In this document: in pieces, positions 731 through 29,418 of the stretch
Position numbering within the stretch: the first letter of the stretch is position 1
How the letters are laid out: every line of letters begins with the position of its first letter
Source: Bacillota bacterium
Lineage (GTDB): Bacteria > Bacillota > SHA-98 > UBA4971
Direction of reading: 5' to 3'
Length of the DNA: 49,012 bases
Assembly: GCA_012842395.1 (NCBI GenBank)
Contig: DUSX01000038.1
Coordinates: 1 to 49,012 of the forward strand
The notes under the pieces: model-generated
Told to the model about the DNA's origin: nothing
The model's database searches: none
Seen by the model: only the letters and a program-made list of their open reading frames with translations
Made by a program: the position numbers and the translations under genes

Positions 731-757
731 TAAAACGGTGGCGAAACCTGCCGATAT
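731..757 (+). promoter_or_regulatory. Sigma-28 (FliA/SigD) promoter for the chemoreceptor
   Basis: TAAA, 15 bases, GCCGATAT, 45 bases ahead of the chemoreceptor start. It supports late flagellar control of this gene and helps to reject the much longer upstream reading frame as the true start. Confidence 0.88.
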
Positions 758-4181: not shown

Positions 4182-5132
4182 TCACTCAATGGCGGTTATG
4201 AGCGTCGTCTGGTGCTCGGGCCGGGCAAGGTCCATCTCGGTGGACGTCTCCACCCACACGCCGTCCGCCTCTTGCTTGACGAGCCGCACCACCGGGCGCG
4301 TCACCATACCGCGGGAGAGCCTCTCCACCGCCGCGAGCTCCCCTGTGCTGAGGCGCACGAACGCCCCCTCGGGGAACGGCGATACACAGCCGAGCATGGC
4401 CCGCACCACGTCCTTGTCGAACTCGAAGCCGGCCGCGCTCATCATATAGTCCACGACCTCGCCCGGAGTCATATGCCTTTGGAAGCGGGACCGCACGAGC
4501 ATGGAGCTGTACGCGTCAGCACACGCGACGATCCGCGAGAACGGGTGGATGTCGGAGCCCCGCAGGCCCCTGGGATACCCGCTCCCGTCCATCCTCTCGT
4601 GATGCTGGGCAACGATGGCTTTCGTAAACGCCGAGATCCTCGGGTGCTGCCGCAAGACCTTCACGCCGAGCTCGGGATGCGTGCGCATTTGCTTCGCCTT
4701 GTCGGGTGACAGCCCCTCGCCCTCCGTGTAGCTCGCTTCCGGCGCGACGGGAACAAGCGCCATGCCGACATCATGGAGCAACGCCCCCAGCCCGATGTCT
4801 TGAATGCGGGCCTTCTCCCCCATGGCGAGCGCGATCGCCACCGAGAACACCGCCACGTCGAACGGGTGCACGCACTCGTATTCGTCAGGCTCGTCGAAGA
4901 GAGTCCAGGACACCAGCACGTTCGGGGAAGCTTTGGACACGCTGGATTTGATGCCCTCCACGACCTCAACCAAATCATCGTAGGGCGGCTCAACCGCGGG
5001 ATCGCCGGCCTCCCTGAGCTGCGAGAGGAGGTCCTGCATGATCCTGATGGCTCGGTTCCTCACATCATCCGGGACGATGCCTGTCCCTCGTGCAACCAAC
5101 GGTACCACCTCGGCAAGAACGAACGTTGTCAC
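4182..5132 (-). CDS. HD-GYP domain protein, putative cyclic-di-GMP phosphodiesterase
   Basis: A 316-residue protein with no membrane segment. An N-terminal helical region of about 85 residues leads into an HD-GYP domain: HDVGM at 120-124, HHERMDGSGYP at 177-187, and the following RIVACADAY. The final 70 residues look like a small beta domain. The usual HDxGK motif has Met instead of Lys, so activity may be altered. HD-GYP enzymes hydrolyse cyclic di-GMP and commonly govern the switch between swimming and attachment. It sits between cheR and fliW in the motility operon, with a GTG start 21 bases after cheR. Confidence 0.88.
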   Translation of the reverse strand: MTTFVLAEVVPLVARGTGIVPDDVRNRAIRIMQDLLSQLREAGDPAVEPPYDDLVEVVEGIKSSVSKASPNVLVSWTLFDEPDEYECVHPFDVAVFSVAIALAMGEKARIQDIGLGALLHDVGMALVPVAPEASYTEGEGLSPDKAKQMRTHPELGVKVLRQHPRISAFTKAIVAQHHERMDGSGYPRGLRGSDIHPFSRIVACADAYSSMLVRSRFQRHMTPGEVVDYMMSAAGFEFDKDVVRAMLGCVSPFPEGAFVRLSTGELAAVERLSRGMVTRPVVRLVKQEADGVWVETSTEMDLARPEHQTTLITAIE

Positions 5133-5153
5133 GCCCGGCCGCCTACGCCACGC

Positions 5154-5945
5154 CTACGCGACGACCGGGTTCCGCTTTCGGTAGAAGAACGGTGAGACGA
5201 GCTCGAACCCGAGCTCGGACGCGGTCATGATGGTCTCAGTGCCCCCGATGAACAGAACGCCGCCCGGCCGTAAACTGGCGTTGAAGCCTTTGAAGACCCG
5301 GGTCTTGGCATCCTCGGTGAAGTATATCATCACGTTCCGGCACAGGATGAGGTCACAGTCCTGCTCGTACGGGTCGGCCAGCAGATTGTGGACCCGGAAC
5401 TCGACCATTTGACGCACCGAATCTTTCAGCCTGAGCTTGTCGCCTTCGGCCATAAAGTATTTCTTCACAAGCTCCGGCTTTACCTCTTTGACATCGTCGC
5501 GCGTGTAGATCGCCTCGCGCGCAAGGCGGATGGCGGATGCGTTTATGTCTGTGGCAATGATCCGGTGCCTCGTGCCCGGCGCGACCTCGCTCAGGATTAT
5601 GCCCACCGTGTACGGCTCCTGGCCTGTGGAGCAGCCTGCAGACCACACCTTGAGGTTCGGGCGCGTCTTCAAGAGGCCCGGGAGGATCGTTCCAGCGAGC
5701 TCGTCAAACTTTTCACGGTTCCGGAAAAAACTGGATACGTTGATGGTCACGAAGTCCACGAATTCACGGAGCACTGCGGGGTCCTGCTCCATTGCGCGCC
5801 AGTACTCGAAAAGGCTCGCATATCCGGACCTTGTGAGCGCCGCGGACAGCCTGCGCTTCATCTGGTTTTCCTTGTAGCAGCTCAGGTCGATCCCGGCTGC
5901 CTGCATCACTTTCCACCGGAAAAGGCTATAATCCATGTCTTGCAC
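5154..5945 (-). CDS. cheR: Chemotaxis protein methyltransferase CheR
   Basis: A 263-residue SAM-dependent methyltransferase that adds methyl groups to glutamates of chemoreceptors. The N-terminal helical domain is followed by the Rossmann domain with WSAGCSTGQEPYT (SAM binding), then IIATDINASAI and LILCRNVMIYF. The C-terminus lacks a pentapeptide-tether-binding extension. The GTG start follows a GGGAG site; an ATG three codons in is an alternative. It is encoded directly after cheB, the opposing methylesterase. Confidence 0.95.
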   Translation of the reverse strand: MQDMDYSLFRWKVMQAAGIDLSCYKENQMKRRLSAALTRSGYASLFEYWRAMEQDPAVLREFVDFVTINVSSFFRNREKFDELAGTILPGLLKTRPNLKVWSAGCSTGQEPYTVGIILSEVAPGTRHRIIATDINASAIRLAREAIYTRDDVKEVKPELVKKYFMAEGDKLRLKDSVRQMVEFRVHNLLADPYEQDCDLILCRNVMIYFTEDAKTRVFKGFNASLRPGGVLFIGGTETIMTASELGFELVSPFFYRKRNPVVA

Positions 5946-6025
5946 GTATACTGCAACTCCCGAGATGCATAGTCGCGCCGCCGTTTCTGCTGCTCGTGCC
6001 GCAATTCCTGTTGTCGCCTGGCCGC

Positions 6026-7153
6026 CTATGGGATTTGGTTGACCATCTGCACGATGGCACCGGCCACCTCCTGGAGCGGAACCACCAGATCCGCGAGCCC
6101 TTGATCGACCACGGCCTTGGGCATACCGTATATGACGCAGCTCGATTCGTGCTCTGCTATGGTCCTCCCGCCCGCCGCCTTGATGGCGGCCATGCCGGCC
6201 GCGCCGTCCCTTCCCATTCCGGTGAGCACCACCCCGACAAGCCGGTCTCCGTACACCCGGGCCGCGGACTCCATCGTGGCGTCCACAGACGGCCGCACGC
6301 CATTTCGCGGCGGATCGGTGGAGAGCGCCACCTCCCCGTCAGCGGTGAGCAACATATGGTATCCGCCCGGTGCCACGAACGCCACCCCGTCCGTAAGCTT
6401 GTCGCCCGACTCAGCCTCCTTCACAGCTATGGCTGAGGTCTCTGCGAGCCTCGCGGCCAGCGACTTTGTGAAGCCAGGCGGCATGTGCTGCACGATAAGC
6501 ACTCCGGCAGAGAGGTCGGCGGGCAAAGCGGGGAGGACCTGGTTGAGCGCGGACGGCCCCCCGGTGGAGGCACCAATGACCACAACCGTGTCGCACTCTT
6601 CGCCCGGCCCGGCGCCCTGCCTCGCCCCCTGCCCGAGATGACCGCGCTCTCCTCGAGAGGCAGCCTCCCCTGGAACGCCTGAAGAAGGACGTGGTCCACC
6701 CCCGGCCGTCCCGTCCACGCCGGGCCTCGCGAGCCTGGGAACATGTACCTTGGCGCGCGCCGCCAGCTTCACTTTGGCAACGAGCTGGTCCCGCACCTCA
6801 CCCAGGCCCACGGTCATCGAATGAGACGGCTTTGCCACGAAATCGACCGCGCCGAGCTCCAGCGCCCGGATGGTGGTAGCCGCGCCCTCCTGCGTCAGGG
6901 CGCTCAACATGACGACAGGGACGGGGCGTTCGCTCATGATGGCCCGCAACGCAGCAAGCCCGTCCATCACCGGCATCTCCACATCCATCGTGATGACGTC
7001 GGGCTGGAGAGCACGAGCCTTCTCCACAGCGGCCTTGCCGTCCCTGGCTATGTCAACGACGGTGATGTCTGGGTCCGACCCCAGCATATCCGAAACCACT
7101 TTACGTGTAAAGGCCGAGTCATCCACAACGAGGACTCTGATTGGTAGGTTCAC
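6026..7153 (-). CDS. cheB: Chemotaxis methylesterase/glutamine deamidase CheB
   Basis: A 375-residue two-domain enzyme. The receiver domain (1-120) carries VLVVDDSAFTRK and the phospho-acceptor Asp near residue 57 in ITMDVEMPVMDG. A Gly/Ala-rich linker of roughly 55 residues separates it from the catalytic domain, which shows GASTGG (nucleophile Ser), QHMPPGF (His) and GMGRDGA (Asp). It removes methyl groups from receptors and deamidates glutamines when phosphorylated by CheA. The GTG start lies 44 bases after cheY. Confidence 0.95.
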   Translation of the reverse strand: MNLPIRVLVVDDSAFTRKVVSDMLGSDPDITVVDIARDGKAAVEKARALQPDVITMDVEMPVMDGLAALRAIMSERPVPVVMLSALTQEGAATTIRALELGAVDFVAKPSHSMTVGLGEVRDQLVAKVKLAARAKVHVPRLARPGVDGTAGGGPRPSSGVPGEAASRGERGHLGQGARQGAGPGEECDTVVVIGASTGGPSALNQVLPALPADLSAGVLIVQHMPPGFTKSLAARLAETSAIAVKEAESGDKLTDGVAFVAPGGYHMLLTADGEVALSTDPPRNGVRPSVDATMESAARVYGDRLVGVVLTGMGRDGAAGMAAIKAAGGRTIAEHESSCVIYGMPKAVVDQGLADLVVPLQEVAGAIVQMVNQIP

Positions 7154-7197
7154 GACGGAATCCGATCTCCCCCGTCTCGGCCGCGGCCGCCCGGCCG

Positions 7198-7554
7198 TCA
7201 GCCGACCAGCTTCTTGAGGGACGCGAGCACCTTGTCAGGATCAAACGGTTTCAGGAGGTAATCACGTGCCCCGGACATGATGGCCTCCATGACCAAAGAC
7301 TGCTGGCCCACGGCGGTGCACATGATGACCTTGGCATGCGGGTCGCGCTTCTTGATCTCCTTTAGAGCGGCGATGCCGTCCATGACGGGCATGGTGATGT
7401 CCATGAGGACCGCGTCGGGAGCGCTCTCCATGTATTTCCTGACAGCCTCCTGCCCGTCTTGTGCCTCCTCGACCTGATAGCCGTGCTCCTCCAGGAGTTT
7501 GCGCGACCTCATCCTCATGAAGGCCGCGTCGTCCACGATGAGCACCTTGGGCAC
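7198..7554 (-). CDS. cheY: Chemotaxis response regulator CheY
   Basis: A 118-residue stand-alone receiver domain. It shows IVDDAAFMR, the phospho-acceptor Asp52 in VLMDITMPVMDG, Thr in MCTAVGQQ and Lys in LLKPFDP. Once phosphorylated by CheA it binds the flagellar switch. The GTG start directly abuts the cheC stop codon, so the two are translationally coupled, fitting CheC as its phosphatase. Confidence 0.95.
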   Translation of the reverse strand: MPKVLIVDDAAFMRMRSRKLLEEHGYQVEEAQDGQEAVRKYMESAPDAVLMDITMPVMDGIAALKEIKKRDPHAKVIMCTAVGQQSLVMEAIMSGARDYLLKPFDPDKVLASLKKLVG

Positions 7555-8286
7555 CTATATCACCCCGTTCCCCTTTGCGTTGTCCGAGCTCAGCGCATTG
7601 AGGATCGTTGCGAGAGAGTTGTTGGTCGGCACGATGAAGAACAACGCCTCGACGCTCTCAAGGCTTTGCTTGAGCACCGTCTGGGCTACCAGTGCGTCCG
7701 TACCACCGTCCGCGCGGCCTGCGCCACCGGCGGGCCGCCCGCCCACGCATTCTCCCCCGGTGCCGGGCGACGCGGCCTCTTCATTGGTAGCCACCGAGGC
7801 CTCCAGCATCTTCGCGACAAACGTCTCCCCATCCAGCACAGGCGGGGCGGGCATGGCACGCAAGCCGGTGGCCTCCGCCAGCGAGTTCAAAAAGAAAGAT
7901 CCCGCGAGGTTGCCTACCTCACACAGGGCTGATCCGCCCATCTCCGTCAGACTGGTGGTCGTTCCCGGCTTGTTGCCCATGAGAATGTCCACCAGGCGGT
8001 AGGCGCTAGCACGCGGGAAGATGAGGATGACATCACCCGTAACGTCACCTGTGAGCCCGATCCTCACTCCGACAGTGGGTTCTTCCACGCTGTGCTTCGA
8101 CGCCTTGGCGATGTCCCGGCACGCCACGAAACACACGTCGGGCACGCTCATCTCGATCTTGCGGCCTATCATGTCGGAGAGCACCGATGCGGCGCTCTCC
8201 ATGCCTCTCGCCAGGATACGTTTCAGCGTATCGAGCTCGCTAGCACTGTAATTGATACTCGAAACGATCCTCGTTCCCTCCCTCAT
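7555..8286 (-). CDS. cheC: CheY-P phosphatase of the CheC/CheX family
   Basis: About 243 residues. The second active-site helix is intact: S119 ALC E123 VG N126 followed by a proline 22 residues on, matching the family pattern of Ser/Asp-x3-Glu-x2-Asn-x22-Pro. The equivalent first helix (from residue 18) reads LDTLKRILARGM, where the catalytic Glu and Asn positions hold Arg and Ala, so only one site looks functional. A Gly/Ala-rich insert of about 35 residues lies in the second half. The chosen ATG overlaps the end of cheA by 47 bases; starts further upstream would overlap more. No cheD, the usual CheC partner, is in this window. Confidence 0.88.
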   Translation of the reverse strand: MREGTRIVSSINYSASELDTLKRILARGMESAASVLSDMIGRKIEMSVPDVCFVACRDIAKASKHSVEEPTVGVRIGLTGDVTGDVILIFPRASAYRLVDILMGNKPGTTTSLTEMGGSALCEVGNLAGSFFLNSLAEATGLRAMPAPPVLDGETFVAKMLEASVATNEEAASPGTGGECVGGRPAGGAGRADGGTDALVAQTVLKQSLESVEALFFIVPTNNSLATILNALSSDNAKGNGVI

Positions 8287-10567
8287 AACCTGAGCCCGAC
8301 CCCGAGACATGGCTGCGGCCCACGGCCTTCTCCAGCACCCGCGCGACATCCAGGATCAGAGCGACTCGCCCGTCACCGAGAATGGCGCCACCCAGGACGC
8401 CCTTGGCACGCCTGGCGAGCCTGCCGAGGCTCTTGATGACTATTTCCTGCTCCCCGAGGAGCGAATCAACAATGATCCCCACCCGCATGTCCTCGTACCG
8501 CGCTACTACCACGAAGGCCCGCCCGCGAGCCCGCTCACCAGACTGCTCATCCGAACGGCTCGTGGCTAGCTCACCAGCCGGCTCGCACCCCCCGACGCTC
8601 GCTGCGGAGCCCCCGCCGCCCTCCCCAGACGAAGCCGGTGCACTGGCATCGTCTCTCCGCGCGAAATCCCGCAAGTCAAACACCGGCAGGACCTTGCCCC
8701 TCAGCACTATCGCGTGCCCCTGCCCGACTGGTTTGACCTCGGTAAGCGAGACGCGAGTAACCTCTACCACGGAAGACAGGGGGATCGCGAATTCCTGGCC
8801 ACACGATTCGACGAGGAGAGCTCTGAAAACCGCGAGCGTGAGCGGCACCGACAAGACGAAAGCCGTTCCCTTCCCGGCAGCGGTGTTCACACGCAAGGTG
8901 CCACCCAGCTTCTCGATGTTGGCGCGCACGATGTCCAAGCCGACCCCGCGTCCCGACACGTCATTCACCTGGGTCGCGGTGGAAAAGCCCGGTTGGAAGA
9001 TGAGCTCAATGGCCTCCTCGTCCGAAAGGGCCGCGGCCACCTCGGCGGAGATCATCCCCTTTCGCACCGCGGACTCGCGGACCCGCTCGAAGTCGATTCC
9101 TCCGCCGTCGTCCTCCACGGTGATGACCACGCGGTCCTCCACGTGTCGGGCAGCCAGCCGCACCCGCCCCTTTTCGGGCTTGCCGCGGCGGACGCGCTCT
9201 TCTGGCGGCTCTATGCCGTGCCCGACGGCGTTCCGGAGGAGATGTATGATGGGATCCGCGACCTCTTCTATCAAGGCCCGGTCGAGCTCAGTATCCTCGC
9301 CTTCCACGACGAACTCCACCAGCTTGCCAGAGCTTGCGGCGGTGTCCCTGACCATCCTGGGGAAGCGTTTGAACAAGCTCGAAAGCGGCGTCATCCTGGC
9401 CTTCATGACCTCTTCTTGGAGCTCGGTCGTGAGCCGGCCCATGTGGGCGGTGATCTGCTCGAGGTCCCCGATGGACTCCGAGTGGCCGTCGAGTGACGCG
9501 AGACGCCTTTGGACCTCGGCGAGCCTGGCCTCGTCTATGGCAAGCTCTGAGACTATGCGCACCATCTTGTCAAAGGCCTCGATGCCGACCCGGATGGTGT
9601 CCCCCTGGGATCTTCCCAAGAGCTTCGGCACATCGGACGCTGCCGTCCCGGTCTCATCGGCATTCTCGCCAGCCCCGCGAGCGCCGTTCCCGCCGGCACC
9701 AGCGGCAGCCTCGGCCTCGGCCTTAGCCTCGGCCTCAGGGCGGACCTGAGCGCAAGCGTGACGATCAGCCCCGGCACCGGTGTTCACATCAGCGTCCCCC
9801 TCGGCGTCAACCCCCGCCCCGCTGCCTGCGGCAGCAGCACCGGCGGAAGATTCCGGGCCCGCCCCCGCCGTAGCACCGTGCGCGCCAGGATGCACGCAGC
9901 GCACCTCCACGCGCTCGACGTCGGGCACCTCGCCGACCTTGCGCTCCACCTCTGCCTCGCTCACGGGTGACCCGAGCAGCAGCACGGCCGAGAGGTCCAG
10001 GCCCGCTTTCTCAGCCTTGATGTCATCCAGCGACGGCTGCGTCCCGGCGACCGTTCCGAGCTCTTGGAGGGCTTGTATGACCTGGAGAGCACGCACGGGC
10101 GGCATCGCCGTGTCATCCGCGAACCTCACATGTACCTCATACGTGCCGACCCCCAGTGAAGCGGCGCTCGCGAGCCGGGCAACGAGCGATTCGACGTCGA
10201 TTTCGCCGGCGCCGCGGACGCGCGGACCGCCGCCGGAGGCGTCGAGCTCCGCGGCAAGCGCCCGTAAGCCATCGACCGCTTCCAAGAGCACGTTCACCAG
10301 CTCTTGGCGAGGCGCGACCCTGCCGTCCCGCATGGCCGCAAACACATCCTCCATGGCGTGCGCGAGCGTGGACATCCTGGCGTGGCCTACGGTTGCCGAC
10401 GAGCCCTTCACGGTATGCGCTATGCGGAACATGTCCTGAAGGAGGGGCTTGTCGTGGCCCTCGCTTTCGAGCCTGACGATCTCCTCTTCGAGCGCTTCGA
10501 GCTCGTCGAGGGTTTCATCGAGAAAAAGCCTGATGTCCTCCGGAGTCAACGAATATCCTTCCGCCAC
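8240..10567 (-). CDS. cheA: Chemotaxis sensor histidine kinase CheA
   Basis: About 775 residues from a GTG preceded by TAGGGG. Domains in order: HPt with phosphorylated His51 (HTVKGS); a ferredoxin-like P2 region around 150-240; a long Ala/Gly-rich linker; the P3 dimerisation helices; the ATPase (N box HLLRNAVGHGIE, G1 box VEDDGGGID, G2 box GRGVGLDIV); and the CheW-like P5 domain, which has its own ~50-residue low-complexity insert. In the N box the usual DHG reads GHG. The short C-terminal tail overlaps cheC. It phosphorylates CheY and CheB under control of receptors. Confidence 0.96.
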   Translation of the reverse strand: MAEGYSLTPEDIRLFLDETLDELEALEEEIVRLESEGHDKPLLQDMFRIAHTVKGSSATVGHARMSTLAHAMEDVFAAMRDGRVAPRQELVNVLLEAVDGLRALAAELDASGGGPRVRGAGEIDVESLVARLASAASLGVGTYEVHVRFADDTAMPPVRALQVIQALQELGTVAGTQPSLDDIKAEKAGLDLSAVLLLGSPVSEAEVERKVGEVPDVERVEVRCVHPGAHGATAGAGPESSAGAAAAGSGAGVDAEGDADVNTGAGADRHACAQVRPEAEAKAEAEAAAGAGGNGARGAGENADETGTAASDVPKLLGRSQGDTIRVGIEAFDKMVRIVSELAIDEARLAEVQRRLASLDGHSESIGDLEQITAHMGRLTTELQEEVMKARMTPLSSLFKRFPRMVRDTAASSGKLVEFVVEGEDTELDRALIEEVADPIIHLLRNAVGHGIEPPEERVRRGKPEKGRVRLAARHVEDRVVITVEDDGGGIDFERVRESAVRKGMISAEVAAALSDEEAIELIFQPGFSTATQVNDVSGRGVGLDIVRANIEKLGGTLRVNTAAGKGTAFVLSVPLTLAVFRALLVESCGQEFAIPLSSVVEVTRVSLTEVKPVGQGHAIVLRGKVLPVFDLRDFARRDDASAPASSGEGGGGSAASVGGCEPAGELATSRSDEQSGERARGRAFVVVARYEDMRVGIIVDSLLGEQEIVIKSLGRLARRAKGVLGGAILGDGRVALILDVARVLEKAVGRSHVSGSGSGYEGGNEDRFEYQLQC

Positions 10568-10580
10568 TTGGCACCGACCC

Positions 10581-11525
10581 CTACCGCAAATAGTCCACAA
10601 GGGAAGTCTGCATTATCCCGGCAGCCGCCCCGAGGGCCGCCTTGTACACCGTCTCCTGCAACTGCAGGTCAGAGATGGCCTTGAACACGTCCGCATCTTC
10701 GGTCTTCGACAGAAGCGCCTCCAGCTCCACCTCGTCCTCGGACAGCTTGGCTGATGCCCGGTCTAGCCGTCGCACCTTCGCGCCGACGCCCGTGACGAGG
10801 TTCATGATCCGGTCTTGAGCCGCCTGGGTGGCACTGACGTCGGACGCGATATCGTCGTAGTACGTGGATGATGCATCGCCTGCGAGGAGGTGATCCCGGA
10901 GGTCCACGAGGATCTGGAAGAGGTTCCTATTGCCCGCCTCGCTGATGCCCTGCATGAACACCTCGCCGCCGTTCGCGTTGACCTGCATGGTCGTGCCGGG
11001 CTCGACTTCGACCTGCTTGCTGCCGTCGAGACCCTCATAGGTAACGGTCGTAACGGTAACGCCCGATGCGTCAGTGTTCTCTGTCAGCACAAAGGGCTTC
11101 GTGAGGGTCTTCAGGCCGGCGAAGATGTACCTGCCGTCGTATTCCGTGTTGGCGAGGTCCACGAGCTCGGCGATGAGGCCGTTCACGTCCTGCGCGAGCG
11201 CCTGCCGCTCGTCACCGGAGAGAGTGCTGTTCCCGGCGCGGAGCGCGGCGTCGGCGGCATTCTGGAACACCTCCTGTGCCTTCATGAGAGCCCGTTCGGT
11301 CGCGCCGAGCCAGTCCTTGGCATCGTCTATGTTGGTCTTGTGTTGCGCGACCCCTGCCCGAAGCGCCCGGATGGCCATGCCCCGCGAGGCGGCGATCGGG
11401 TCGTCTGATGGTTTCCGCACCCGCTTCCCGGTGGATATGTCCTCCGAAAGTCTCTGCATCCGAGCAAGTTGCTGGCTGATGTCCCTGGAAAGGTTGTTCA
11501 GAAGGTAACTCGTGCTCACACGCAA
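10581..11525 (-). CDS. flgL: Flagellar hook-associated protein 3 (hook-filament junction)
   Basis: About 314 residues with the FlgL pattern: an N-terminal coiled coil beginning RVSTSYLLNNLSRDI, the STGKRVRKPSDDP segment, a central beta region, and a C-terminal helix ending in LQTSL-like residues (MQTSLVDYLR). It is exported and joins the hook to the filament. The TTG start gives the canonical Met-Arg-Val N-terminus behind GGGAGGGG; a GTG three codons upstream is possible. It lies between flgK and cheA with a 13-base gap to the latter. Confidence 0.94.
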   Translation of the reverse strand: MRVSTSYLLNNLSRDISQQLARMQRLSEDISTGKRVRKPSDDPIAASRGMAIRALRAGVAQHKTNIDDAKDWLGATERALMKAQEVFQNAADAALRAGNSTLSGDERQALAQDVNGLIAELVDLANTEYDGRYIFAGLKTLTKPFVLTENTDASGVTVTTVTYEGLDGSKQVEVEPGTTMQVNANGGEVFMQGISEAGNRNLFQILVDLRDHLLAGDASSTYYDDIASDVSATQAAQDRIMNLVTGVGAKVRRLDRASAKLSEDEVELEALLSKTEDADVFKAISDLQLQETVYKAALGAAAGIMQTSLVDYLR

Positions 11526-11570
11526 CCCCGTCACCCCCTCCCGCTACTGGATCGCGGGTGTTACCTAGGC

Positions 11571-13034
11571 CTACCGGCCTACGATGCCCGTGCCGTTGAT
11601 GAGGGTATCGAGCATCTCATCAATGGCTGTCGTCAGCCTGGCCGCTGCCTCGTACGCCCGCTGATAGCGCATGAGATTCACCATCTCCTCATCGATGGAG
11701 ACCCCTGAGATGCTATCCTTGTTGTTCGTGTATTGCTGCAGCGTCGCGTCGTGTACCTGCGCCATGTGCGCGGCCTGCCGCGCGCACGTCCCCACGTCGG
11801 CGACGATCTGCTGATAGAATCCCCCGAAGCTCACCTTGTCCCCGCCCATCGTGAGCGCGTCCTCGAGACCTGCAATGGCAAGCGCGACCGAGCCGTCCCC
11901 GACAAGCCCCGGCTGTGCGGCCGCGGCCACCTTCGCCACGTCTCCACCGGCGTCTGGGTCGAGGTCCGGGTTCACTGAGAGAGTGCGGCGCCCGGCGTCA
12001 TATACAAAGAAGTCGATGCCGTGCGTCGGGGTCAGGGCATCGTCTATGCCATAGCCGTCCTTATGGAGCTGGTTGACCTCGTCAGCGAGCGTGGTCACGA
12101 GCTGCTCCACGTCCTTGTAGTACCCAGTGACATCGGCGTTCCTCGCCTGCAGCAGCCCGCCCACTTCGCCTCCGGTGGCTTCCACCGGACTCCCATCGTT
12201 CGCCCAGACTATCTGAGATCCCAGCTCGGTTGCCCCAGGGTCGAGCGCCTCTCCGGGCAGAGTCCCGGACTCGAACCGGAGCTCGCTTGCGGCGTCGCCG
12301 CGCACGAGCTCTGCAGAGCCGACTTGAACGACTACGGACCCGTCCTGGGTCTCGAAGGCGCTGATATTGATGAGCCGTGATAGCCTCTCGATGGCGACAT
12401 CTCGCGCGTCCTTGAGGTCGGCAGGATCGTTCCCGATCGCCGTGATCCTCACGATCTCCTTGTTCTGCGCAGCGATCTCCCTGGCAAGCGAGTTGATCTC
12501 GTCGACGCGCGTGGCTATCCCCTCGTCCAGGTCGCGCGCAAGCTCGCGCAGGCCACTGAGCTCGTTGTTGAAGTAGGACGCAAGGGTCTTGGCCTGCTCC
12601 ACCAGGGCCGTGCGGACGGCGATGCTCTCCGGACGCTTCGATAGCTCGTCCCACGCCGCGAAGAACTCGGTCAAAGCGTCGGCCAGCCCGGTATCGGAAG
12701 GCTCTCCGAAAACCGCTTCCACCTGCGAGAGCGCATCGCTCTTGCCTTCCCAGAACCCGAGGGATACCCCAGCCTGGCGGATTCGGCTTTCGACGAACCC
12801 ATCGAAGACGCGCTTTATCCTGACCATCTCGACTCCCGTGCCCACCGTGCCAGGCCGCTTGAAGCCGGCCCCGGTTTCCACCACGTACCCCGGCGTGGCC
12901 GCGAGCACGGGCTCACGCCGCACGTAACCTTGCGTGCCGGCGTTTGCGATGTTGTGGCCGACCACTTCGAGCGCTCTTTGTTGAGCAACCAAGGCGCGCC
13001 TTGCGGTCTCAAGGCCGAGAAAAGTGGAACGCAT
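11571..13034 (-). CDS. flgK: Flagellar hook-associated protein 1
   Basis: A 487-residue protein. The N-terminus (LETARRALVAQQ, then VVGHNIANAGTQGYVRR) is the flagellar rod/hook family signature, and the C-terminus has MVNLMRYQRAYEAAARLTTAIDEMLDTLIN, characteristic of FlgK. It is shorter than the enterobacterial protein, with a reduced central domain. It is secreted through the flagellar export apparatus and starts the hook-filament junction. Its first 26 bases overlap flgN, which encodes its likely chaperone. Confidence 0.95.
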   Translation of the reverse strand: MRSTFLGLETARRALVAQQRALEVVGHNIANAGTQGYVRREPVLAATPGYVVETGAGFKRPGTVGTGVEMVRIKRVFDGFVESRIRQAGVSLGFWEGKSDALSQVEAVFGEPSDTGLADALTEFFAAWDELSKRPESIAVRTALVEQAKTLASYFNNELSGLRELARDLDEGIATRVDEINSLAREIAAQNKEIVRITAIGNDPADLKDARDVAIERLSRLINISAFETQDGSVVVQVGSAELVRGDAASELRFESGTLPGEALDPGATELGSQIVWANDGSPVEATGGEVGGLLQARNADVTGYYKDVEQLVTTLADEVNQLHKDGYGIDDALTPTHGIDFFVYDAGRRTLSVNPDLDPDAGGDVAKVAAAAQPGLVGDGSVALAIAGLEDALTMGGDKVSFGGFYQQIVADVGTCARQAAHMAQVHDATLQQYTNNKDSISGVSIDEEMVNLMRYQRAYEAAARLTTAIDEMLDTLINGTGIVGR

Positions 13035-13542
13035 GCGGCCTTCCCGCCTTTCTTCTCAGAGCGGTGGTGTTCACTGAATACGTGTTCCGGCCATCACGGC
13101 ACGCGTACACCCGAGTCGCGAAATCGACGTAGTCGAGGATGTTGTTTATGAGCACGATGTTTCCACCGTTGATGACGGCGTGTTCCTCGAGGATGGGCGC
13201 AAGCTGCTGGAGGATGCTCCTGTACCTCTCGAGACAGCCATCCCCTGCCGAAGCCATGACCTCCTCACACGATACGCGGTCGCTGCCGCGAGACGCGGCG
13301 CCGCCGGGACGGCCGAGGCTGCGCGTGACCTCGCCGAGGAGCGCGAGCCTCGCGTTCATGACCGCCCGGACCTTCCCGATGAGGGCCTCAACCTCGCGCA
13401 ACGTGGCTGTCAAAGCATCTACATCGAAAGAGACGAGAAGGCCCTGTTCCCGGCGGGAGAGGTCCAGGAGATCCCTGTGAAGGGCGGCCTCTTCCTCGAG
13501 AAGATCGAGGATCTCGTTGCACCGTTGAGAGATGTCGTGCAT
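13009..13542 (-). CDS. flgN: FlgN-like flagellar export chaperone
   Basis: A 177-residue, mostly helical protein. Position between flgM and flgK, length, and the pattern of Leu/Glu-rich heptads (CNEILDLLEEEAALHRDLLDLSRREQ) fit FlgN, the chaperone for FlgK and FlgL. A Gly/Ser-rich loop interrupts the helices in the middle. Sequence conservation in this family is low, so the call rests on context as much as on sequence. The 3' end overlaps flgK by 26 bases. Confidence 0.8.
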   Translation of the reverse strand: MHDISQRCNEILDLLEEEAALHRDLLDLSRREQGLLVSFDVDALTATLREVEALIGKVRAVMNARLALLGEVTRSLGRPGGAASRGSDRVSCEEVMASAGDGCLERYRSILQQLAPILEEHAVINGGNIVLINNILDYVDFATRVYACRDGRNTYSVNTTALRRKAGRPHAFHFSRP

Positions 13543-13636: not shown

Positions 13637-13945
13637 CTAGGACGGCCTCAGGAGCTTCCGGGCGACCATGTCGCCGCTCACCTTGTATGTGCCGGTCTCC
13701 AGATCCTTGCGAATGGTCTCAACCTTCGCCTTTCGCGCGGCAGCGATCTCATCGAGCCTTTGATGTGCGCGTTGCAACTCGCGTGCGCGGTCGGAGACCA
13801 CGACCTCGTCCGCCTCCGCCTCCGCCTCCGCCTCCGCGCTTTCCCGTTTCTTTTGCGCCTCTTTGGCTTCCTTGGACTTCGTCGCCTCGGCTTGCTCCGC
13901 GTACCTGCTGAGGATCCTGCGGAGTCCCTCGTTTTCGACCTTCAC
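13637..13945 (-). CDS. flgM: Anti-sigma-28 factor FlgM
   Basis: About 102 residues from a GTG behind GAGAGGTG. The C-terminal half (VVVSDRARELQRAHQRL, then ETGTYKVSGDMVARKLL) is the sigma-28-binding region of FlgM. The middle has a run of Ala-Glu repeats. FlgM holds sigma-28 inactive until the hook is finished and FlgM itself is exported. The gene has its own sigma-28 promoter, so it autoregulates, as in Bacillus subtilis. Confidence 0.93.
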   Translation of the reverse strand: MKVENEGLRRILSRYAEQAEATKSKEAKEAQKKRESAEAEAEAEADEVVVSDRARELQRAHQRLDEIAAARKAKVETIRKDLETGTYKVSGDMVARKLLRPS

Positions 13946-13986
13946 TGGACGCACCTCTCTCCGATGCCGACTCGTTCTCGGTGATC

Positions 13987-14014
13987 TTATCGGCAAGTCG
14001 CGACAAGGTGTTTA
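13987..14014 (-). promoter_or_regulatory. Sigma-28 promoter of the flgM operon
   Basis: Minus-strand TAAA, 16 bases, GCCGATAA, a full consensus -10 element. The -35 TAAA overlaps the stop codon of flgJ, so the late operon begins exactly where the rod/ring operon ends. Genes flgM through csrA are probably transcribed from here. Confidence 0.85.
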
Positions 14015-14437
14015 GCCCTCCTTGGCATCATGCACGCCGCGGGGCCCGTCCAAACGGTGGCCTCCTAGCTGCGATGGCGTCGCGGACTGCCGTGACAGCT
14101 GTCTGTAAAGAATCTCGGCGAGACCGATGCCGCCCCGCGCAGCCATGGCTTTCGCGATCTCCTGGTCGAACATGCTCTGGAACACTTCTTCGCCGCGCCC
14201 GCCACCAAAGAGGTCGTCCTTCGGAACCGTCTTGCGCATTTCTTTGAGAAGCTCTTCCAGGAACACGGATTCCAGTTCCTGGCAGGCTTTCATCAGTTCT
14301 CGGTCGGTACCTGCGGAATGCGTACGAGCCCCGGCCTTCGCGCCCGCCACCGGCCCGCGCGACTCGGCAGCGGTGCCAAGCGAGGCTTTGACCGCGCCGT
14401 CCGACCTGGTGACACCGCTCATCATGTCCCCGACCAA
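14012..14437 (-). CDS. flgJ: Rod-binding protein, FlgJ N-terminal type
   Basis: About 141 residues, equal to the rod-cap half of FlgJ without the muramidase domain. The core runs from ACQELESVFLEELLKEMRKT through GGGRGEEVFQSMFDQEIAKA to GGIGLAEILYRQL. The TTG start sits 7 bases after AGGAGGAGGT, which is why it is preferred over ATG codons at 14458 and 14425. It follows flgI as in many flagellar clusters. Its absence of a peptidoglycan hydrolase domain means another enzyme must open the wall for the rod. Confidence 0.85.
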   Translation of the reverse strand: MVGDMMSGVTRSDGAVKASLGTAAESRGPVAGAKAGARTHSAGTDRELMKACQELESVFLEELLKEMRKTVPKDDLFGGGRGEEVFQSMFDQEIAKAMAARGGIGLAEILYRQLSRQSATPSQLGGHRLDGPRGVHDAKEG

Positions 14438-14572
14438 CGGTCTACCTCCTCCTCCCATCGGTCGTCCCGGCCCGGCCGCCCATGCGCCGTGAGAGACGCC
14501 CCGCCTGCCGCCGCCTGCCGCGCGGCCGCCTGCCTCGCGATGTGTCCGCGGCCCTTGGCCCCGCATTCATGG

Positions 14573-15754
14573 TCACAAGACTTCTATCTCCGCGAGAAGG
14601 GCGCCGCACGCCTTGAGCGCCTGCAAAATGGCGATGATGTCGCGGGGCGTCGCGCCAACGGCGTTGAGCGAGGACACGAGAGCGTCTACAGTGTCCATCG
14701 AGGAGACATCGAAAACCGTCCCGGCCGCCGTCGCATCGGGGCCGCCCTTGTCTCGCGAGGTGGAAGGGGATCCCTCGTCTCGGGCGGTGGAGGCGGACCC
14801 ACCGTCAACGCTGGAGGAGATCTGAACGCGCAGGCTGCCATGGGAAACCACGGCCGGGAGCACTCTCACGTTTCCGCCGATCACGACCGTGCCTGTGCGC
14901 TCATTGAACACGACGCGCGCCGGAACGTCCGCGGTGACCGGGATCTCCCCAATGAGCGCGACGAGCCCCACGGGGTCGCCAGCATATCCCGCCGGCACTC
15001 GCACCTCCACGGCCCCCGCGTCGAGGGCCTTTGCAGTGCCATCCCCCAGGCGTGCGCAGATGGCTTTCGCTATGCGGTCGGCCGTAGCGAAGTCCGGTTG
15101 AGACAGAGACAGGGTGATCTTCCCGTTCTCCGCGCCGGAAATAGCCTCCTCAAGCTCCCGTTCGACCGTCGCCCCCTCCGGAATGGTGGCCACCGTGGGA
15201 TGCGTTTTCTGGCGCGCCGTCGAACTGCCAGCCCCGCCGCCCAGCGAGACGACCCCTTGCGCCGCCGCGTACATCTTCTCGTCGGCGCCGAGGAGCGGCG
15301 TAAGGAGAAGGGTCCCTCCCTCAAGGCTCCGCGCGTCGCCGAGAGACGACACCACCACATCGAGCCGGTCGCCCACCCGTGCGAACGGCGGCAGCTTCGC
15401 GGTCACCATCACGGCCGCGACGTTCTTGACGCGCATCTCGTCGGGCGAGACCTTGACGCCGAACTTCATCAGCATGTTCGCAACCGACTGGACGGTGAAC
15501 ATCGCGCCGCTGGAGTCCCCCGTGCCCTTCAACCCGACCACCAGGCCGTAGCCGATGAGATCGTTCTCTCTCACGCCCTCAATCCGCGTGATGTCCTTGA
15601 TCCTTGACTCTGCGCTTGCCACAGACACGAGCGCGACGGACTCGACCGCGGCCACCAACGCCAGCCCCACGAACACGGCGAAAAGTGCGGGCCTGAGCCT
15701 GAAGCCGCGTAGGCCGCGCGCGGTCCGGATGGCATGCTCGCTAGCTCGTTTCAT
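14573..15754 (-). CDS. flgI: Flagellar P-ring protein FlgI
   Basis: About 393 residues. The ATG follows GGAGGTGGG. An N-terminal signal peptide ends near ASAESRIKDI, followed by the diagnostic RIEGVRENDLIGYGLVVGLKGTGDS. The C-terminus shows LVSSLNAVGATPRDIIAILQALKACGAL. A Ser/Asp-rich insertion of about 30 residues lies before it. FlgI forms the bushing around the rod in the peptidoglycan layer of bacteria that have an outer membrane. It lies between flgH and flgJ, the usual order. Confidence 0.95.
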   Translation of the reverse strand: MKRASEHAIRTARGLRGFRLRPALFAVFVGLALVAAVESVALVSVASAESRIKDITRIEGVRENDLIGYGLVVGLKGTGDSSGAMFTVQSVANMLMKFGVKVSPDEMRVKNVAAVMVTAKLPPFARVGDRLDVVVSSLGDARSLEGGTLLLTPLLGADEKMYAAAQGVVSLGGGAGSSTARQKTHPTVATIPEGATVERELEEAISGAENGKITLSLSQPDFATADRIAKAICARLGDGTAKALDAGAVEVRVPAGYAGDPVGLVALIGEIPVTADVPARVVFNERTGTVVIGGNVRVLPAVVSHGSLRVQISSSVDGGSASTARDEGSPSTSRDKGGPDATAAGTVFDVSSMDTVDALVSSLNAVGATPRDIIAILQALKACGALLAEIEVL

Positions 15755-15801
15755 TGCAGGTCCCACCTCCTGCTGGACCAATGGCTCCGTCCTTCCCGTC
15801 C

Positions 15802-16506
15802 CTAGAACAGGAAATCGAGCACCCCGGCGAAAAACCTCCCGAGGAACGACAGCAAGCCCTTCTTCTGCTCGACATTGAGCGAGCCCTCGTACTTGATCTC
15901 CGCATCCGCGATGTACGTCGAGAACACGGTGTTGTCGGCACCGATGTCCTCGGGCCTCACGATCCCAGTGATGACGATGTTCTGTCGCTCCCGGTTTATT
16001 ACGAGGGCCTGCGTCCCTTCAATCCTGAAATTCCCGTCGGGCAGCACCTCCGTGATCTTCGCCGTCATTCTGGCCACGAGGCTCCCGGAACGGGACGTAG
16101 CGTTCCGCCCGTTGGACTTCACGTTCGTAGAAAAGCCCGTTTCGGGCAGGAACGAAAACATGCCAACTCCCTCGGCAACGGTAAGCCCGGCGCCTTTGCC
16201 GGTCGATGTCTGCGCATCGTTGCTCGCATACGACCTTTCCGAGATGAGGACGGTTATCAGGTCGCCGACCTGCCTTGCCCTATGGTCTGCGAATAGAGAG
16301 CGCGCATGGTCGCCCCACAGCGACAACTGGGGCTGCACGGCCCCTTGGTTGGCTCCGGCTTCGTCGGCCACGGCCGCCGCATGGGCCCCAGCGGGTGCCA
16401 TGCTCGCGAGCCACCACATCGCCCCAAGGACGAGCAGGACTCCAACGCAACGCGGCCTAGGCCGTGCGCCGCGGAGACCTACGGTGAACCCACATCTATC
16501 GGACAC
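15802..16506 (-). CDS. flgH: Flagellar L-ring protein FlgH
   Basis: About 234 residues. After an N-terminal hydrophobic export signal come SLWGDHARSLFADHRARQVGD and LITVLISERSYASNDAQT, the FlgH signature, and a C-terminal GIVRPEDIGADNTVFSTYIADAEIKYEG. FlgH forms the outer-membrane ring of the basal body. No clear lipobox cysteine is visible at the end of the signal, unlike the lipoprotein FlgH of Proteobacteria. The GTG chosen has GGGGTGAT 8 bases upstream; a GTG 18 bases further up lacks such a site. Confidence 0.93.
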   Translation of the reverse strand: MSDRCGFTVGLRGARPRPRCVGVLLVLGAMWWLASMAPAGAHAAAVADEAGANQGAVQPQLSLWGDHARSLFADHRARQVGDLITVLISERSYASNDAQTSTGKGAGLTVAEGVGMFSFLPETGFSTNVKSNGRNATSRSGSLVARMTAKITEVLPDGNFRIEGTQALVINRERQNIVITGIVRPEDIGADNTVFSTYIADAEIKYEGSLNVEQKKGLLSFLGRFFAGVLDFLF

Positions 16507-16558
16507 GACGGCATCACCCCGCACACGTCGTTGTTGATTTGAGTCACGCAGCGCGGTG

Positions 16559-17677
16559 TCACATCGCGCGGACCACCTTCGCGGAGATCACCACGGCACG
16601 AATGATCGCACCGGACGCCGTGTTCCTTACGCGGATGCGAGCCCCCTCACACCCGTCCTCCAGTGCCTCTCCCGGGCTCGCTACGGTGACACCCGCAAGC
16701 GCAGCCTCGATGGTCACGGCGTCGCCCTTTCGCATGAGCGGCGGCCGCTCGACGCTCGATCGCGCGAGCACTTCCCCGGCGGTGATCGTGTGGCTCGCCC
16801 GCATGCCTACGACGGCGGCGGCATCGAAGAACACGTCCTGGGGAACGCGGCCGAGGTCCCGGGTCTCGAGCCGGATGTCCGGCGTCCCGATGATCTCGTG
16901 TCTCTGGATGGTTCTGGCGGCCACGACAACCGCTTTCGCCACGTCCACCCTTGCCCTTACCGGGAGAACTCTGTAAGCCTCCCCGTCCACCGACACGGTG
17001 ACCCTAACGCTCGTGGTGCCGATGAACGTAGTCGTAGGCAGCGGCTCCACCTTGAGCGAGATCTCGCCGTCCGGCACGAGGACGCTCTCGTTGGGGTCGA
17101 GCAACACCGACACCTCTGCCTCGCGGTCGTCCCAGGGCATCGACGCCGTCATGTAGTCCCGCACGGCGGCTGCGATGGCGTCCGCTGTCACCAGCGTGGC
17201 GCGCGTTCTCACGACTATCGTGGTAGGGCCCGAGATGACCATTTGACCCGGGTCGAACCCAGCCTGCCTCAGCCTGATACGGACTATAGCGAGGCTCAGC
17301 GTGCGTTCCTGCCCCGGAAACGGCGCTCGGCCGATCTCGATCGCCTTGAGGCGAGAAACAAGGTCCGCCTCGCCGGGCTCGGGGCAAGACCCAACAAGGG
17401 GAGCACCCGCGCCGGGGACCGAGCCGGGGCTCCTATCTAGGCGGGAGCCGCGAAGACACTCCACGCTCGCGATATCTCCCAGCGTGATCACGGTCCCACG
17501 GACCTCGACCGGGCTCGTTATTTCGATCCTCGCTATCGTCCCCGGGTCTTCGGCGGCGCCCCGGCTTCCTATGGTGAGGAACAGCGCCCCCACGACGGCG
17601 ATGGCCTTTGCGACGACGCCCAGCTTCTTGCAAACGCACCCGTATCGAGCACACGTGTTCATAGCCCGGCCATCCAC
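16559..17677 (-). CDS. flgA: P-ring assembly chaperone FlgA
   Basis: A 372-residue exported protein. The N-terminus has Lys-Lys followed by a hydrophobic stretch (residues ~20-42). The C-terminal third is the SAF/FlgA domain, with VVAARTIQRHEIIGTPDIRLE and a final GARIRVRNTASGAIIRAVV. It assists assembly of FlgI in the periplasm. It is longer than enterobacterial FlgA and has an extra N-terminal beta region. The GTG start follows AAAGGGG; an ATG five codons on is an alternative. It starts 10 bases after flgG. Confidence 0.92.
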   Translation of the reverse strand: MDGRAMNTCARYGCVCKKLGVVAKAIAVVGALFLTIGSRGAAEDPGTIARIEITSPVEVRGTVITLGDIASVECLRGSRLDRSPGSVPGAGAPLVGSCPEPGEADLVSRLKAIEIGRAPFPGQERTLSLAIVRIRLRQAGFDPGQMVISGPTTIVVRTRATLVTADAIAAAVRDYMTASMPWDDREAEVSVLLDPNESVLVPDGEISLKVEPLPTTTFIGTTSVRVTVSVDGEAYRVLPVRARVDVAKAVVVAARTIQRHEIIGTPDIRLETRDLGRVPQDVFFDAAAVVGMRASHTITAGEVLARSSVERPPLMRKGDAVTIEAALAGVTVASPGEALEDGCEGARIRVRNTASGAIIRAVVISAKVVRAM

Positions 17678-17687: not shown

Positions 17688-18476
17688 TTAGCGCTTGAGG
17701 TTGTTCGCTATGGAGAGCATGTCGTCGGATGTCTGGATGGCTTTGGAGTTCACCTCGTAAGCGCGCTGGGCGATTATCATATTGACCATCTCTTCGACCA
17801 CCTTCACGTTGGACATCTCCAGAAACCCCTGGGATATGGTCCCGAAGCCCTCGAGCCCTGGGGTGCCCACTGCCGGCTGGCCAGAAGACGCAGTCGCGGT
17901 GAACAGGTTGCGTCCGATGGCGGAGAGGCCCGCCGGGTTCACGAACTTGGCGAGCTCGATCTTGCCGAGTTCCTGGGGCTCGCTCTCGCCCGACAGGATC
18001 ACCGACACCGTGCCATCGGTGCCTATGGAGATGTCCACCGCTTCAGGAGGAATGGTGATCTCGGGCTCGATGGGGAAGCCGTCGGACGTGACGATCCTGC
18101 CCTCGCTGTCCTTCTTGAACGAGCCGTCCCTCGTGTAAGCCACGGTGCCGTCCGGCATGAGCACCTGGAAGAACCCGTCGCCCTCTATCACAAGGTCGAG
18201 AGGCCCTTCGGTCTGCACGAAATCACCCTGCGAGAAAATCCTTTGGATAGCGGCGGGCCTAGTACCGAGACCGACCTCTATGCCGGCCGGCACCCTCGCG
18301 CCCTCCGCCACGGTGGACCCGGACGTCCGGAGCTTTTGATACATGAGATCTTGAAAGTCCACCCTGCTCCTCTTGAACCCGTATGTGTTGAGGTTGGCCA
18401 GGTTGTTGGCGATCACGTCCATATTGAGCTGCTTCGCCAACATGCCCGTGGCCGCACTCCATAACGCTCGCATCAT
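17688..18476 (-). CDS. flgG: Flagellar distal rod protein FlgG
   Basis: A 262-residue rod protein. N-terminus [20 protein letters not shown] then [18 protein letters not shown] is the FlgG signature, with [11 protein letters not shown] in the core and [27 protein letters not shown] at the C-terminus. It is exported and assembles the distal rod that crosses the P and L rings. The start is the first of two adjacent ATG codons behind AAGGCGGTGAG. A gap of 289 bases separates it from flgF. Confidence 0.95.
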
Positions 18477-18765
18477 CTCTTGCTCACCGCCTTCGACCGA
18501 ACTTCCCGTTGCACTCGATCTGCCTCGTCTGAACCTCTCCTGAACAAACAGCGAGGACGACCTTGCACCCGCACGGGGCGCGGTGCAAACGCAACGCGAC
18601 GCGCCGCACACCCCGCATTCACCGGGAGAGCCGTCCTCCAACATACCCCGCCTTACCTCGTCCTGCCGGGACCGCCTCAGTCGTTCAGCGGCCCGTGGCC
18701 CCCGCTTGCGCGGTCCGGCCACCATACCGGGATCGTATCATGGATTCATGCCTGACGGACAAACC
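18477..18765. other. Intergenic gap between flgF and flgG
   Basis: The gap is unusual inside a rod operon. The flgG frame remains open through it but has no family similarity and no good start. I see no convincing gene, promoter or terminator. Confidence 0.5.
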
Positions 18766-19563
18766 TCAGGCTACTCTCCCGACGTCGTTAATGGATTTGT
18801 CGAGGGTCCCGTCCAGAAACCACACCACTCTCTGGCACGTCTCGTACGCCCGCATACCGGCGATCATCTGAACCATCTCCGTCACGACGCTTACGTTGGA
18901 CATCTCGAGGAACCCCTGCCGCACCACCGTCCCATCCGCAGCCCCAACTGGGCGCGCCGTCGCACCGGATGCCGCCACAAAAAGGCTGCCGCCCGCCTTG
19001 GCGAGCGAGGATGGATCATCGAACGCCACGATCCTGAGCCTCCCAACGAGCCGCCCATCCGCCGTGACCCGACCGTCGCCGCGCACCTCCACGGACGCCC
19101 GGCCGTCGGCGCCGGAAGGAGAGGAAGGAAGGGTTATCGGTCCGGACTCGCCGAGCACCGGCATGCCGTCCATGGTGACTAGCTCGCCACGGGAATTGAG
19201 GGTGAACGACCCATTGCGCGTGTACGCCTCACCCTGGGGGGTTTCGACCACGAAATACCCGTCCCCCTGGATGGCGAGGTCCAGAGGCGCGCCGGTCTCG
19301 ATGAATGGCCCCTCGCTCGGATCAAAGCCCGTGCCTCTCACGTAAACCCCGGGTCCCAGCCCACCTATGGGAACGGTCCTCGCGAGGCGCCACGGAGCCC
19401 TGCTTTCGACTCGTACCGCCAGCTCGTCCGCAAACGCGCCGACCAGCGCGATGTCCTTCTTGTAGCCAGGCGTGTCGACATTGGCGAGATTCTGCGCGAT
19501 CACGTCCTGCTGAAGCAGCCCCGCGACCATGCCGGATGCCGCCGCGTAAAGCCCGCGAACCAA
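18766..19563 (-). CDS. flgF: Flagellar proximal rod protein FlgF (FlgG-like)
   Basis: About 265 residues from a TTG behind AAGGGGGGTG. It has the rod family N-terminus (VRGLYAAASGMVAGLLQQ, VIAQNLANVDTPGYKKD), core LAIQGDGYFVVETPQGEAYTRNG, and C-terminal MSNVSVVTEMVQMIAGMRAYETCQ. It is the more divergent of the two FlgG-like proteins and stands first in the operon, so FlgF is the better name. It is the first gene after a consensus sigma-54 promoter. Confidence 0.9.
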   Translation of the reverse strand: MVRGLYAAASGMVAGLLQQDVIAQNLANVDTPGYKKDIALVGAFADELAVRVESRAPWRLARTVPIGGLGPGVYVRGTGFDPSEGPFIETGAPLDLAIQGDGYFVVETPQGEAYTRNGSFTLNSRGELVTMDGMPVLGESGPITLPSSPSGADGRASVEVRGDGRVTADGRLVGRLRIVAFDDPSSLAKAGGSLFVAASGATARPVGAADGTVVRQGFLEMSNVSVVTEMVQMIAGMRAYETCQRVVWFLDGTLDKSINDVGRVA

Positions 19564-19646
19564 GCTCTCACCCCCCTTCTTTCCAGCGTATGGGAGCGGC
19601 AAAGGGCCCTTGTGCCTTGAGCGGAGAACGTTCGCTCCCAGTGGCA

Positions 19647-19663
19647 AGCAACTCCCGTGCCAG
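19647..19663 (-). promoter_or_regulatory. Sigma-54 (RpoN) promoter of the flgF rod/ring operon
   Basis: The minus strand reads C TGGCACG GGAG TTGCT, matching every specified base of the -24/-12 consensus (TGGCACG-N4-TTGCW). It is on the correct strand 84 bases ahead of flgF. A perfect match is expected about 0.01 times by chance in this window, by a simple composition estimate. A palindrome suited to an activator site lies about 150 bases upstream. Confidence 0.78.
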
Positions 19664-19797: not shown

Positions 19798-19827
19798 CAC
19801 GGGTGAGCAAGTTTTGCCCACCCCGTG
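19798..19827. promoter_or_regulatory. Inverted repeat, candidate enhancer (UAS) for the sigma-54 promoter
   Basis: Arms CACGGGTGAGCAA and TTGCCCACCCCGTG flank a 3-base centre and are complementary apart from one bulge and one mismatch. Its distance from the -24 element (about 150 bases) is typical for binding of a sigma-54 activator. It could also serve the divergent CheW-like gene. The rest of the 506-base gap between these two genes holds no gene that I can support. Confidence 0.45.
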
Positions 19828-24425: not shown

Positions 24426-24507
24426 TGAGTGATTGAGGCCCCGGCAGCGAAGGTCTCTCGGGGGCGCCGGGACGGCACAGCATGCCGGCACGGCAGGGAA
24501 GCAGGTG

Positions 24508-25113: not shown

Positions 25114-25118
25114 TCGCG

Positions 25119-25811: not shown

Positions 25812-25864
25812 GCACAGTCAACGAAGGCTAAGCGGAAGGGTTCACGGAAGGTGACCACCTCGTT

Positions 25865-27133: not shown

Positions 27134-27253
27134 GACAGGACGCTTGTTCGGAGCCTATGGAGCCTGTGGAGTCCAGACTGAGGTGTTCTTGCCGAACTTG
27201 CGAGATGCGAAGACAAGACCAGAGATCGTAGATCAGGGGAGGCGTAAGCATCT

Positions 27254-29242: not shown

Positions 29243-29342
29243 CTTAAAGACCTCCTTGGAAAGCTTCTCGAAGACCCTCGCGCAACCCCGGGGCCGCCTG
29301 CCCGTCTTCCACTGCCCCGCCCCGCCCGGATGGCGGCAAGCG

Positions 29343-29373
29343 AAAAGCCCCGAGGCAACCGACCTCAGGGCTT
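29343..29373 (-). terminator. Riboswitch-controlled intrinsic terminator
   Basis: On the minus strand AAGCCCTGAGG pairs with CCTCGGGGCTT (one G-U pair), followed by a short T-run. It lies between the FMN aptamer and ribU, so it is the likely off-switch when FMN is bound. Confidence 0.75.
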
Positions 29374-29418
29374 GTAGGATCCTTTCTGGACCCACCATCT
29401 GCAAGCAAACGCTTGCGA

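Follow-up and report, generated by a model that had tools for sequence, protein, structure and literature searches.

Two flagellar operons of an uncultured member of the Bacillota, those that begin with flgF and flgB, are very probably driven by sigma-54 together with a dedicated kinase-regulator pair, with FliA acting next. The pair is called FlgS/FlgR here for its role and not for its family. The analysis started from a 49,012-nucleotide stretch of DNA (the window) in a genome of 3.14 Mb (G000; 61 contigs, 98% complete), in which an exact -24/-12 promoter sequence stands before the flgF operon. The closest named relatives are the uncultured Bacillota MAGs JACIXY01, JAAYXB01, JASEJE01, UBA5449 and UBA4981.

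A diderm-type flagellar cluster

On the minus strand, the window carries flagellar genes in the order flgF-flgG-flgA-flgH-flgI-flgJ-flgM-flgN-flgK-flgL, followed by che genes. The products of the first six are FlgF (18766..19563; TTG start, TIGR02490 above cut-off), FlgG (17688..18488; Pfam rod/hook domains, 84-98% identical to the FlgG of relatives), the P-ring chaperone FlgA (16559..17677; PF13144), the outer-membrane L-ring protein FlgH (15802..16524; PF02107), the P-ring protein FlgI (14573..15781; PF02119) and the rod-binding FlgJ (14012..14566; PF10135). The anti-sigma-28 gene flgM (13637..13948; PF04316) has an inferred start codon, set downstream of its sigma-28 site. It is followed by flgN (13009..13542; PF05130), flgK (11571..13034; PF22638), flgL (10581..11534; recognised by its flagellin N/C domains and its place after flgK) and the co-directional cheA-(cheC)-cheY-cheB-cheR-HD-domain genes (4182..10600; Pfam). 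A gene divergent from flgF, at 20070-20906 on the plus strand, encodes an unusual coupling protein, in which a weak Cache-domain match separates two CheW-like stretches.

Since FlgH and FlgI form the L- and P-rings, an outer membrane is to be expected in this cell, and the host group of uncultured Bacillota appears to have one. The flgF-G-A-H-I-J cluster that defines the diderm Bacillota flagellum is thus present in a Bacillota genome. The earlier note on this DNA had called the cluster Bacillota-like; more precisely, it belongs to the diderm Bacillota type, which has FlgH and FlgI, and not to the Bacillus type. The layout matches that of the diderm Bacillota (Negativicutes, Halanaerobiales), whose flagella are chimeric, with a Bacillus-type flgB operon and a flgF-G-J-A-H-I cluster (PMC5007114); that paper makes no mention of RpoN.

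Two further observations concern other parts of the window. At 24433-28447 on the plus strand, an ECF sigma factor, a zinc-finger anti-sigma factor, an RseB/LolA-like protein and a trypsin-PDZ protease are encoded consecutively; the set looks like a sigma-E/RseA/RseB/DegP-type envelope stress system, consistent with an outer membrane in the lineage. An FMN riboswitch (78.7 bits; 29414-29606, minus strand) lies directly ahead of the gene at 28583-29404, which encodes an ECF-type transporter S component matching riboflavin transporters.

A consensus -24/-12 site before flgF

The site upstream of flgF (TGGCACGGGAGTTGCT; 19647..19662, minus strand) agrees with TGGCACG-N4-TTGCW in 12/12 letters, and its GG-N10-GC core is exact. 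It ends 84 bp upstream of the flgF start codon, a TTG at 19563 preceded by a GGGGGG ribosome site. The earlier note's report of an exact sigma-54 consensus on the right strand, 84 bases before flgF, is therefore accurate. In the 49-kb window, 8 core-bearing sites reach at least 10/12, and only the flgF site scores above 10/12 with the core. Genome-wide (3.14 Mb), the pattern TGGCAYGN4TTGCW occurs at 5 sites, and its reversed control at 2. At about 4 full-consensus sites per 6.3 million strand-positions, any one upstream stretch of 150 bp would contain a match by chance with a probability of ~1e-4. Three of the other four genomic sites lie within about 2.5 kb of the gene for an enhancer-binding protein, which is the usual mark of a functioning sigma-54 system.

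Judged from the spacing (~12 nt below the -12 element), transcription of flgF is predicted to start at about 19636. Exactly there lies an element of ~45 nt (GCGAnnGTTCTCCGCTCAAGGCAnAAGGGCCCTTTGCCGCTC; 19593..19637, minus strand) that occurs once in the genome and is near-identical in six genus members; it contains a palindromic core and a CCGCTC direct repeat. An Rfam search at the flgF promoter matched nothing, and the predicted fold of the element is no better than that of shuffled sequences; its role could be that of an operator or of a leader RNA.

Conservation of the site and a second operon

The flgF site is present in all 16 lineage carriers first examined, with differing flanks: six genus members, all five sister-genus members that are flagellated, four from families f2 and f3, and one from family f42 (G055). 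Overall it spans the genus, the sister genus and families f2, f3, f42, f63 and f73, and the weakest example (G016) still scores 9/12. When flgF upstream regions are aligned between genera, the motif is the sole strictly aligned block. In contrast, none of the 13 other flagellated genomes of the phylum that lack FlgR and have flgF in the locus carries a right-strand site of at least 10/12 before flgF (L043 was dropped, as its locus has no flgF).

In a wider named set, no -24/-12 site was found before flgF in Halanaerobiales, a Limnochordia MAG, Heliobacteria, Tepidanaerobacter or Lachnospiraceae. Candidate flgF sites were found there in Aerophobetes, Coatesbacteria, Hydrogenedentota and several Desulfobacterota-like genomes. 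Hence, the sigma-54 habit for rod and ring genes is wider than the proteobacteria, to which the earlier note had confined it.

A second site of this kind (TGGCATCACAATTGCT) lies on contig C35, before flgB. The flgB cluster runs on one strand and comprises flgB, fliF, fliG, flgE, motA, fliR, flhB, flhA, flhF, fleN and fliA, its continuity as an operon being judged by strand and gene order. The last gene, fliA (C35:19096-19770), is co-directional with the rest, and its product scores above the family cut-off. The flgB site scores 10-12/12 in 16/16 lineage genomes. Scores in the controls, flagellated Bacillota without FlgR, do not exceed 9/12, so that 0/12 of them qualify at flgB. An FlgB-like match in G127 proved to be FlgE and was rejected as flgB.

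A probable dedicated activator tracks the promoters

The genome has rpoN with a complete C-terminal domain (PF04552, 5.9e-66; TIGR02395 above cut-off) and encodes 12 full enhancer-binding proteins. One of them, FlgR, has a REC-AAA+-HTH_8 architecture (PF00072, PF00158, PF02954); its gene lies behind flaG and fliD and ahead of flgS, which encodes a GAF-PAS-HisKA-HATPase kinase. In G004, G013 and G015, flgF...flgL...fliD-flgR-flgS form a single cluster on one strand. FlgR scores 348.8 against the Campylobacterota FlgR model (NF049963) and 370.9 against that of Caulobacter FlbD (NF050807), and so reaches neither 750-bit cut-off. The sequence-based checks proposed in the earlier note thus gave a positive answer: rpoN is in the genome, a dedicated flagellar enhancer-binding protein is encoded beside fliD, and sites of this kind precede flgF and flgB in 16/16 lineage genomes at each.

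FlgR orthologues occur in 19/398 genomes of the phylum sample. They are present (at least 58% identity over the conserved part) in all promoter-bearing genomes of the first set except G012, an 81% complete genome in which the promoters were found and FlgR was not. In two sister-genus drafts, G008 and G011 (90% and 88% complete), flgG, flgB and FlgR are all missing, and the whole flagellar system has probably been lost. The only further orthologues in the 398 genomes are those of G092, G096, G127 and G234 (55-61% identity). These four genomes were chosen by FlgR alone, and all four carry a 10-12/12 site before flgF; G092 and G096 also have the flgB site. FlgR orthologues therefore mark the lineages of the phylum that have -24/-12 flagellar promoters.

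The FlgR set forms one clade (support 100/100), although the tree gave no placement of it relative to candidate activators from other phyla. In all members of the clade, the loop that contacts sigma-54 departs from GAFTGA at its fifth residue (GAFTSA, GAFTNA or GAFTHA), with GAFT kept. No FlgR-like match was found in the two genomes searched for the Halanaerobiales/Limnochordia comparison.

An upstream inverted repeat lost together with the DNA-binding domain

Alignment of the flgF upstream regions also revealed an inverted repeat, with GTGGGCAAANNTTGCTCAC as its genus form. The window copy (GTGGGCAAAACTTGCTCAC; 19803..19821, minus strand), centred ~151 bp upstream of the -24 element, is a proposed FlgR site. 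A genome search returned a lone 0-mismatch copy, that at flgF, and one other true dyad, which lies on contig C35 before flgB and is centred 102 bp upstream of the -24/-12 site there. Both distances fall in the range of about -80 to -200 at which activator sites of sigma-54 promoters are looked for. In genomes that have kept the FlgR HTH, the dyad lies ~85-190 bp upstream of both promoters. Compared with shuffled sequences in these intact-HTH genomes, it gives Fisher p values of 1e-8 at flgF (12 regions, all from outside the genus) and 8e-17 at flgB (16 regions), values that ignore relatedness and use a dyad consensus derived from the genus flgF sites. Taken singly, the flgF dyads of the sister genus are weak (p 0.07-0.26).

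The dyad is absent at both flgF and flgB in G055 and G096 (shuffle p 0.61 to 1), although the flgB sites of both genomes are perfect (12/12). These are the two genomes with a defective FlgR HTH: in G055 the frame stops just past the AAA+ lid and the other frames show no trace of an HTH, and in G096, of the same family, the HTH is strongly divergent. Such coupling is what would be expected if the dyad were the FlgR binding site, as we propose. In this sub-lineage, the HTH-less FlgR probably acts from solution.

A predicted sigma-28 second tier

A sigma-28 (FliA) promoter, TAAA-N16-GCCGATAA, lies before flgM (13987..14014, minus strand) and scores 12/12; across G000, G004, G013 and G015 the flgM site takes the form TAAA-N15/16-GCCGATAA, at 12/12 in each. 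Two more 12/12 sites are found in the window: TAAA-N15-GCCGATAT (731..757, plus strand) before a gene for a methyl-accepting chemotaxis protein, and a second promoter in the opposite direction (609-583, minus strand). Upstream of flaG-fliD-flgR-flgS, a sigma-28 site scores 12/12 in G015 and 11/12 in G013, and none was found upstream of flaG in G000. With fliA at the end of the sigma-54 flgB cluster and the 12/12 site at flgM, the two-tier cascade from RpoN to FliA that had been suggested is supported at the sequence level. The simplest reading, which these sites support, is a cascade from sigma-54/FlgR to FliA/FlgM and on to the late genes and probably more FlgR.

Proposed mechanism and alternatives

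Building on the sites, genes, orthology, co-occurrence and coupled loss described above, we infer phosphorylation, binding, a start site, operon read-through and a temporal order as follows. RNA polymerase with sigma-54 would form a closed complex on the -24/-12 site of the flgF operon, which encodes rod, P/L-ring and hook-junction proteins. FlgS would phosphorylate the receiver domain of FlgR; phospho-FlgR would oligomerize on the inverted repeat ~85-190 bp upstream, and its AAA+ domain would remodel sigma-54. A like pair of sites would drive flgB...fliF-fliG...flhB-flhA-flhF-fleN-fliA, so that the next sigma factor would be switched on by the one activator that also serves the MS-ring, export-gate, rod, ring and hook genes. 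Restrained by FlgM, FliA would then transcribe flgM and the late genes, and the sigma-28 site ahead of flaG-fliD-flgR-flgS in two relatives would close a positive loop. Points that tell against the scheme are the altered GAFTGA loop of FlgR, the presence of the promoters in G012, where FlgR was not found, and the weak flgF dyads of the sister genus. A more far-reaching version, to which we give slightly less than even credence, has one two-component master switch governing the whole regulon through sigma-54, fliA included, with sigma-28 feedback on flgRS making motility all-or-none; in one sub-lineage the activator would, as in Helicobacter, have shed its DNA-binding domain and its enhancer jointly, in an independent event.

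The reading that competes most directly with a top-level FlgSR switch places the pair at a second-tier checkpoint, where the MS ring and export gate are first produced from a basal vegetative promoter, FlgS detects them and output is then boosted from the sigma-54 promoters. Campylobacter FlgSR operates in this way, switching on the rod and hook genes once it reads a completed MS ring and export gate (PMC7064773), and flhF and fleN/flhG are present here. If FlgS sensed the MS ring and export gate, those genes would require prior expression. However, fliF, fliG, flhA and flhB are probably under the flgB sigma-54 promoter, so that the checkpoint would require the very products that it controls, and a scan of the flgF region, to which that search was limited, showed no sigma-70-like promoter. 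We consider the checkpoint unlikely on this evidence: given that the MS-ring and export genes have an FlgR-type promoter, FlgSR looks like the top-level switch, barring a basal promoter.

It is also conceivable that the sigma-54 promoters are real and respond to another of the 11 remaining enhancer-binding proteins, FlgR having a different flagellar role. The genome does hold 12 full proteins of this type, and non-cognate activation is known in general; nevertheless, in a survey made for FlgR, its orthologues track the promoters phylum-wide, flgR is located in the flagellar cluster, and loss of the FlgR HTH coincides with loss of the dyad, which leaves this account quite improbable. Hardly more credible, and in our estimate a shade less so, is the idea of relics or minor promoters, with the operons mostly read from sigma-A or by read-through. 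Promoter prediction is poor for GC-rich uncultured bacteria, and sigma-A reads Bacillus-type operons, but a near-perfect site kept across genera with diverged flanks and coupled to FlgR and the dyad is unexpected of a relic. As for a chance match, the 8 core-bearing sites in the window might suggest one, yet a site kept across genera with dissimilar flanks removes it, as do the second operon, the co-occurrence of the activator and the out-of-sample prediction; its probability is negligible. The operons are thus best read as driven by sigma-54 with FlgS/FlgR.

Comparison with known systems

The FlgS/FlgR pairs of Campylobacter jejuni and Helicobacter pylori are alike in joining an NtrC-like regulator to a kinase, in being dedicated to flagella, in serving sigma-54 rod and hook promoters and in having FliA/FlgM downstream. 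In contrast to them, the FlgR described here appears to control the MS-ring/export/fliA operon too, its kinase gene adjoins that of the regulator, most members have an HTH and an upstream site, and the host belongs to the Bacillota. H. pylori FlgR is an enhancer-independent activator, according to the title of Brahmachary 2004 as cited in PMC9449129, and such action without an enhancer resembles the mode proposed for the HTH-less FlgR of G055.

The FlrA-FlrBC system of Vibrio and the FleQ-FleSR system of Pseudomonas likewise place sigma-54 first and FliA later, and FlrC/FleR share a REC-AAA+-Fis build; they have two enhancer-binding tiers, whereas one is seen here, no FlrA/FleQ-like master being recognised among the 12 enhancer-binding proteins. 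Caulobacter FlbD is also a sigma-54 activator of flagellar operons, and it is coupled to the cell cycle. The fla/che operon of Bacillus subtilis, which is read by sigma-A, has a similar order (flgB...fliF...flhA-flhF-flhG...sigD) that ends in the sigma-28 gene, and FlgM is shared as well. The operon here is set apart by its -24/-12 promoter with an upstream dyad, and the genome also contains P/L-ring genes.

Significance

Bacillota flagella have been described from Bacillus as sigma-A/sigma-D systems. Sigma-54 flagellar switching is known mainly from proteobacteria, and no description of it for Bacillota was found in the searchable literature. For RpoN control of flagella in Bacillota or Negativicutes, the full-text literature, with subscription journals mostly outside its scope, held nothing closer than the following: a study of the Clostridiales sigma-54 regulon reports no flagellar regulon and mentions flagella once in passing (PMC6615313), and a 2025 survey gives scattered predicted sites at motility genes in Liquorilactobacillus nagelii and Anoxybacillus (PMC12316311).

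It has been proposed that sigma-54 is tied to flagella and to an LPS outer membrane (PMC3162934), and a sigma-54 module that is conserved in diderm Bacillota is directly relevant to that proposal. The module also bears on whether sigma-54 control of flagella is ancient in the Bacillota or an acquisition. Finally, the FlgR variants with and without a DNA-binding domain form a natural series for the switch from enhancer-dependent to enhancer-independent activation.
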